Positions 28,374-28,858 of a stretch of DNA of 52,246 nucleotides are shown in pieces. Each line of letters begins with the position of its first letter. Positions within the stretch are counted from its first letter, which is position 1. Under the pieces are notes generated by a model, which was given only the letters and a program-made list of their open reading frames with translations, was not told the DNA's origin and did no database searches. The stretch comes from Porticoccaceae bacterium (GTDB taxonomy: Bacteria > Pseudomonadota > Gammaproteobacteria > Pseudomonadales > Porticoccaceae). The position numbers and the translations under genes are program-made. Where the stretch lies: contig JABJEX010000088.1 in NCBI GenBank assembly GCA_018663035.1, forward strand, positions 1 to 52,246. The letters run 5' to 3'.

Positions 28374-28738
28374 AGGATTAAGTCTAGCACCGGCATTCTA
28401 ATGGCGCCGAGTTCTCAATTCATGGCCAGTTCTAGATTGCTTTTGAGAGTGCAGACGTGTAAAGTTGCGCGCGTCAAAAAGGCCTGAAAGCAGCGAAATA
28501 TTTGGGTCCAAGAGCATGACCTGTTACCGACCATACAGAGCATTTAACGCATTTAAAAAGGTCAGAAATCGGTGATAGTTTACGGTGAGGTGTCCGAGTG
28601 GCTGACAAAATGCGAAGGCATTTTGGACGCACAAAGGGCGATCTCGCAGAGACAAGAGGCAAGCTCTAGCTTGTCTCGAAGCAACGAGCACGCCGTGCTC
28701 CTGACTAGCTAATAGAACAGAAAACGGTGACAGTTTAC
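28374..28738. other. 365-bp gene-free stretch with hairpins and a partial tRNA-Ser copy
   Basis: No credible coding region is seen. The right half contains the first copy of a 43-bp repeat that includes the first 22 nt of the downstream tRNA-Ser, then a series of short palindromes: AAAATGC-GAAG-GCATTTT (28607-28624), GCGATCTCGC (about 28639-28648), GAGACAAG with CTTGTCTC (28650-28678), and GAGCAC-GCC-GTGCTC (28686-28700). The left half shows nothing clear. The tRNA promoter could not be located with confidence. Confidence 0.6.
28563..28605 (+). repeat. Partial duplicate of the tRNA-Ser 5' end plus flank (copy 1)
   Basis: These 43 bp match 28718-28760 with two mismatches (t/a at 28569 and t/c at 28577). 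The match covers 21 bp upstream of tRNA-Ser and the first 22 nt of the tRNA (acceptor 5' strand and D-arm start). After 28605 similarity stops, so this copy cannot fold as a tRNA. The unit spacing is 155 bp. Confidence 0.85.
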
Positions 28739-28760
28739 GGTGAGGTGTCCGAGTGGCTGA
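28718..28760 (+). repeat. Second copy of the 43-bp repeat, running into tRNA-Ser
   Basis: This copy comprises the immediate 5' flank and first 22 nt of the intact tRNA-Ser. It is the partner of 28563-28605. Confidence 0.85.
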
Positions 28761-28829
28761 AGGAGCACGCCTGGAAAGTGTGTAAGCGTTAATAGCGTTT
28801 CGAGGGTTCGAATCCCTCTCTCACCGCCA
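28739..28829 (+). tRNA. tRNA-Ser, anticodon GGA
   Basis: 91 nt including an encoded CCA. The acceptor strand GGTGAGG pairs with TCTCACC (last pair G-T), followed by discriminator G and CCA. The anticodon stem-loop has GGA (arm CACGC-CTGGAAA-GTGTG), reading UCC/UCU. A long variable arm (AGCGTTAATAGCGTTT region) is as expected for a class II tRNA, and the T-arm contains GGTTCGAATCC. An intrinsic terminator follows 5 bp downstream. Confidence 0.95.
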
Positions 28830-28834
28830 TATTC

Positions 28835-28858
28835 AAGCCCCCCAACAGGGGGCTTTTT
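28835..28858 (+). terminator. Intrinsic terminator after tRNA-Ser
   Basis: AAGCCCCC (28835-28842), loop CAACA, GGGGGCTT (28848-28855), then further T. It is a perfect 8-bp GC-rich stem with a T-run, placed 5 bp after the tRNA 3' end. Confidence 0.85.

Follow-up and report, generated by a model that had tools for sequence, protein, structure and literature searches.

tRNA-linked repeats (TLRs) have been on record since 1978, and there is still no consensus on what they do. Twenty-two are present in E. coli K-12; they have no known function, and an early claim that linked them to the stringent response was withdrawn (PMC8144298). TLRs of rRNA operons bind CsrA and Hfq in vitro; RrA, RrB and RrF of E. 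coli bind CsrA in vitro, and the other 19 TLRs are predicted non-binders (PMC8144298). RtT/TLR RNAs are expressed in E. coli (PMC8144298) and in Actinobacillus (PMC4986893), where the RtT-class RNAs Arrc20 and Arrc21 of Actinobacillus pleuropneumoniae are reported to lie upstream of tRNA-Asn and tRNA-Lys and to be seen on Northern blots (PMC4986893).

Here we describe a repeat next to tRNA-Ser(GGA) in a 52,246-nucleotide stretch of DNA from a Porticoccaceae bacterium (the window). It shares with the E. coli TLRs (rttR, rrA, rrB, rrF) and RtT RNA (RF00391) a position beside a tRNA gene of which it holds a piece, an interrupted tRNA copy, consecutive hairpins, an adjoining inverted tRNA piece, an occurrence in tandem copies and, by position, membership of the tRNA transcription unit. 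This tie was not recognised in the first-pass annotation of the locus. The two differ in orientation: known TLRs copy the last 18-19 nt of the tRNA, lie downstream of it and carry the module in the T loop, whereas in the window unit the copied part is tRNA nt 1 to ~22 (to ~33), the position is upstream, between the promoter-like sequence and the tRNA, and the module sits in the D loop. The unit shares the location of TLRs within a tRNA or rRNA operon, but not the 3'-terminal 18-19 bp that match the 3' end of an upstream tRNA or rRNA. Arrc20 and Arrc21, compared by description alone, are also 5'-side, but their description includes no interrupted tRNA 5' copies (PMC4986893). New here is a copy of the 5' end that lies in the leader, upstream of the gene, and has its module in the D loop.

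Architecture of the region upstream of tRNA-Ser(GGA)

The features of the locus are as follows.

28437-28465, + strand: promoter-like TTGCTT-N17-TAAAGT of tRNA-Ser(GGA); motif shared by 24 of 28 genus loci, always 5' of the units
28563-28605, + strand: first copy, made up of 21 leader nt and tRNA-Ser nt 1-22 (tRNA part 28584-28605); two mismatches in 43 bp against 28718-28760
28584-28738, + strand: 155-bp unit (tRNA 5' copy, module, rest of the copy, inverted piece, leader); recurs as 155-bp tandem arrays in G046, G007 and G048
28606-28682, + strand: four-hairpin, RtT-core-like module that splits the copied tRNA at its D loop (GGCTGA^), from R1 match and fold; the last letters of its right border are uncertain by 1-2 nt
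28606-28625, + strand: hairpin H1 (minimum free energy (MFE) fold; covariation)
28628-28640, + strand: hairpin H2, the weakest one in the window (MFE fold)
28642-28652, + strand: hairpin H3 (MFE fold)
28656-28677, + strand: hairpin H4 (MFE fold; covariation)
28683-28694, + strand: tRNA copy resumes 3' of the module (AACGAGCACGCC, tRNA nt 22-33; shuffle p 0.0055)
28694-28702, + strand: inverted tRNA piece CGTGCTCCT, pairing with 28686-28691 as hairpin H5 (shuffle p 0.0025)
28739-28829, + strand: intact tRNA-Ser(GGA) (ARAGORN; Rfam tRNA 49.7 bits)
28835-28855, + strand: terminator-like hairpin 3' of tRNA-Ser(GGA)

The first-pass annotation had reported two near-identical 43-bp blocks, and we recovered these with two mismatches at 28563-28605 and 28718-28760, within a longer alignment of 28556-28605 to 28711-28760 (50 nt, 90% identical, 155 start to start). 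The part common to both copies is 21 nt of leader and nt 1-22 of tRNA-Ser. The palindromes that it had listed, CAAAATGC-GAAG-GCATTTTG (28606-28625) and GAGCAC-GCC-GTGCTC (28686-28700), are likewise present, as is CGTGCTCCT, the inverse of AGGAGCACG within tRNA-Ser. It had missed a direct 12-nt tRNA copy, AACGAGCACGCC; the p values for this copy and for the inverted piece come from simple letter shuffles, as do all shuffle tests here. The unit thus reads, in order, leader, tRNA nt 1-22, a ~77-nt four-hairpin module, the next tRNA nucleotides (AACGAGCACGCC) and an inverted piece (GTGCTCC).

We folded the 74-nt core of the module. The MFE structure consists of the four hairpins (z = -4.25), and none of 200 shuffled sequences was as stable. 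Eighteen genus copies, not including that of the window, were used to build a covariance model (R1). It matched the window at 28600-28683 with 54.3 bits (E 2.4e-9, such E-values being rough), and the module has the features of the R1 class: H1 to H4 in order, a GA^C start and GGAC after H1.

The sequence TTGCTT-N17-TAAAGT would be the promoter of tRNA-Ser(GGA). It is too far from consensus for a mechanical promoter scan, which found nothing in the window. Of 28 genus loci, 24 have the motif TTGCTT-N17-TAMAGT, always 5' of every unit and between -44 and -824 relative to the tRNA. At loci that have no unit it lies 44-193 bp before the tRNA, with the exception of G034 (269 bp), which has a diverged unit remnant. 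We found no terminator-like site on the + strand within the unit, and one 3' of the tRNA.

Relation to known RNA families

A search of the window with Rfam RtT (RF00391) gave no match even at E <= 1, let alone at the gathering cut-off, and R1 scored weakly (8.8 bits) on the E. coli TLRs; the link between the two therefore runs through intermediates. One such locus is L085, where the RtT match (63.1 bits, against a cut-off of 45) coincides with an R1 match; E. coli scores 137.5 bits. The Aggregatibacter small RNA AaHKsRNA22 (RF02902) aligns over its full length to the window module, with the same hairpin order, although its scores of 35.0 bits at window positions 28596-28702 and 39.4 bits in a relative (L043:1434-1539) are both below the cut-off of 39.8. 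This alignment suggests that AaHKsRNA22 belongs to the same family. Rfam matches to sX4 and a plastid 3'UTR element were discarded; they are below cut-off and overlap the tRNA itself.

Tandem arrays in the same genus

Among 50 genomes sampled from the genus, the 155-bp unit occurs in tandem before tRNA-Ser(GGA) in 4.4 copies in G046, 4.2 in G048 and three in G007. G043 has two units, seven genomes including that of the window have one, and many sister species have none. The arrays are not assembly artefacts, since G048 is a single contig. Because relatives carry the unit in tandem, the duplication is not a chance resemblance: it is real, and it represents a repeat array with a single unit, not a scar standing alone. 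The unit is also dispensable, since its presence is polymorphic between sister species. A complete second tRNA-Ser gene, which at first pass had been named as the finding that would reduce the copy to a degraded paralogue, was not seen in close relatives. Searched against its own genome, the unit occurs once, its sole relative being one related module after a tRNA-Lys gene. This second module (G000:C80:9433-9517; L060:1501-1585) has the T-loop form and follows tRNA-Lys(TTT) on another contig; tRNA-Lys(TTT) of sister species has a like repeat (L049, L058).

In G007, tRNA-Ser(GCT) is preceded by a GCT-specific, 147-bp form of the unit (L040:1193-1764), in 3.9 copies that are 100% alike. This array sits downstream of what reads as csrA. 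In the GCT arrays, AACGCGCGCCCC and GGGCGCGACTT replace the GGA-type AACGAGCACGCC and GTGCTCC, and therefore the flanks follow the adjoining tRNA. The match of flank to adjoining tRNA reaches shuffle p values of 0.001-0.01 in the best cases and is weaker in others. Some arrays (L039, L044, L045) have two to four modules inside one tRNA copy.

A module family in the Gammaproteobacteria

A strictly filtered R1 search recovered the module from 26 genomes in a class-wide sample of 274. A phylum-wide sample of 299 gave 5 genomes, three of these outside the class; strict filters in such large searches undercount. An element private to this genome is thereby ruled out. Most class copies lie downstream of a tRNA and split, in the T loop, a second copy of its 3' end (GGTTCGA^[module]^AATCC...CCA). 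Of 49 loci, 35 have a significant 3'-end copy (p <= 0.01), often exact over 19 nt, and 28 have an inverted tRNA piece before it; GAACC precedes GGTTCGA in 31 of 62 cases, against 1.4 expected. This order recurs in the RtT elements of E. coli tyrT/tyrV, which run from an inverted tRNA piece through GGTTCGA and the hairpins to AATCCTTCCCCCACCACCA.

Covariation is strong in the 18 genus copies and is also seen in 14 5'-side units and in 117 class copies. In the class set (117 distinct sequences), 93.7% of alignment cells are paired, and both sides vary at 27 of the 28 pairs. Fitting the alignment to the model biases these counts in its favour; in slid controls the paired share drops to 32-47%. 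The closing pair 29-85, which the model does not include, covaries too (G-C in 95, C-G in 4 and A-T in 2 of 106).

Some modules were seen elsewhere. L075:1213-1578 (G185) has tandem modules at 72-bp steps with no tRNA nearby. Single modules away from tRNAs occur at L071, L079, L080 and L081, two of them with TTTGCAC..ATGA replacing TTTGGAC..ATCA. A T-loop copy follows tRNA-Ser(GCT) at L108:1441-1537, in a genome labelled Alphaproteobacteria.

The 5'-side position is shared by twelve named loci outside the genus, in Woeseiaceae, Legionellales, Lysobacterales, Ectothiorhodospiraceae and other groups, at which a T-loop copy precedes the same, intact tRNA. In nine of the twelve the copy begins at tRNA nt 1 and ends at nt 57-70 (identity up to 70/70), and several repeat the leader too; the remaining three retain only a later piece, from nt 33-40. 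A hairpin of the inverted piece after the module is significant (p <= 0.05) in only 5 of the 12. Read 5' to 3', the 3' form has the true tRNA, the inverted piece and the interrupted copy, and the window genus has the interrupted copy, the inverted piece and the true tRNA; the two are therefore mirror images. In 369 class genomes, a strict pattern for the D-loop form matched the window's own genome alone, and in 112 family genomes a relaxed pattern matched this genus alone; these patterns would miss diverged forms.

Discussion

We propose, with a probability of roughly 0.7, that the feature is a 5'-side tRNA-linked repeat encoding a structured leader RNA, in arrays that change by unequal recombination. 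A ~77-nt module of the RtT-core kind splits a partial tRNA-Ser copy between the putative promoter and the intact gene. The unit stands between the two and so, by position, should be transcribed whenever the tRNA is; the module would then fold on its own. The same position predicts that RNase P, cutting at the tRNA 5' end, would free the module as a leader RNA, which may have a function of its own. Unequal recombination between the leader/tRNA-5' repeats would add and remove units, and would keep each copy identical to its own tRNA, so that the two co-evolve. Among the explanations offered at first pass, a structured leader RNA with a pseudo-tRNA front came closest, given the place of the unit, with a promoter-like sequence on its 5' side and the tRNA on its 3' side, and the compensatory changes that keep its hairpins. 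Anti-tRNA pairing by CGTGCTCCT was rejected as a function; its own arm, GAGCAC, adjoins it and makes a local hairpin. At the unit-less site of G020 the arms read GAGCAT/ATGCTC, which preserves the hairpin but makes a poorer match to the tRNA.

The conserved hairpins could also serve movement at the DNA level, which counts against the leader RNA. The module might be a small non-autonomous mobile element that is moved in trans and inserts after GA in tRNA loops (GGTTCGA^AATCC in the T loop, GGCTGA^AGG in the D loop), the tRNA copies arising by insertion or template switching. One module does occur in copies of Ser, Arg, Leu, Lys, Glu, Val, Phe, Gln, Asp, Gly and Tyr tRNAs, in two loops and on both sides of genes with the same GA^A junction, and at some sites away from tRNAs (L071, L075, L079-L081). 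However, we found no companion transposase: Y1_Tnp is absent from the window's own genome and from module-rich genomes such as G025 and G047. Nor did we see a clean empty/filled pair of tRNA copies, and within arrays tandem duplication suffices. We consider mobility unlikely. RAYT/REP-BIME mobility in particular was rejected, with Y1_Tnp in 8 of 48 genus genomes, not including that of the window, and not tracking module number. The small palindromic element copying the tRNA front that was suggested at first pass is thus half right: there is a palindromic module, of a class-wide family, and its movement would be conjecture.

A CsrA sponge, in which two GGA hairpin loops bind a CsrA dimer and tie tRNA output to CsrA activity, is very improbable at this locus. 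GGA tends to appear in the H1 and H4 loops together (53 both, 46 neither, 7 mixed among 106 class copies; Fisher 9e-22), in counts uncorrected for, and confounded by, relatedness. Such paired loops fit a dimeric GGA reader such as CsrA, and in relatives that have them the RNA probably binds CsrA-type dimers. The in vitro binding of RrA, RrB and RrF speaks for a sponge, the predicted non-binding of the other 19 E. coli TLRs against it (PMC8144298). The loops in the window, however, are GAAG (H1) and TCTA (H4), and the genus copies have no GGA there either; a structured leader that does not bind CsrA is therefore expected here. Over L061-L168, the H1 and H4 loops fall into two structural module classes, GGA-type and GNNA/CNNAG-type.

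Decay of a tandemly duplicated tRNA gene into a functionless remnant, another first-pass suggestion, accords with the partial tRNA copies and with the 5'-side copies in other families, which end at nt 57-70 and have no intact acceptor 3' strand. It does not fit relatives with two to four near-identical copies and a conserved structure, nor the same extra module at like junctions in unrelated tRNAs, its stems kept by compensatory changes, and we give it very little credence. A phage or island integration scar was rejected, since the 5' part rather than the 3' part is repeated and the 155-bp unit has no ORF of 100 aa. A phage scar is thus not the only origin of half-tRNA repeats beside tRNA genes.

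We raise, tentatively and as a doubtful generalisation, the reading that TLRs belong to a single family found across the class, built on a four-hairpin module that seeks out tRNA loops. The module would enter a tRNA copy in its T or D loop, at a GA^A junction; copies could lie 5' or 3' of the gene, with mirror-image order on the two sides. If true, TLRs would be a new kind of tRNA-associated element, extending beyond a few E. coli curiosities. The 5'-side position, between promoter and tRNA, would allow clean processing and deletion tests. The class-wide model, fixed junction, paired GGA loops and mirror order may likewise open the leader RNA, a mobile module and a CsrA partner to concrete tests.
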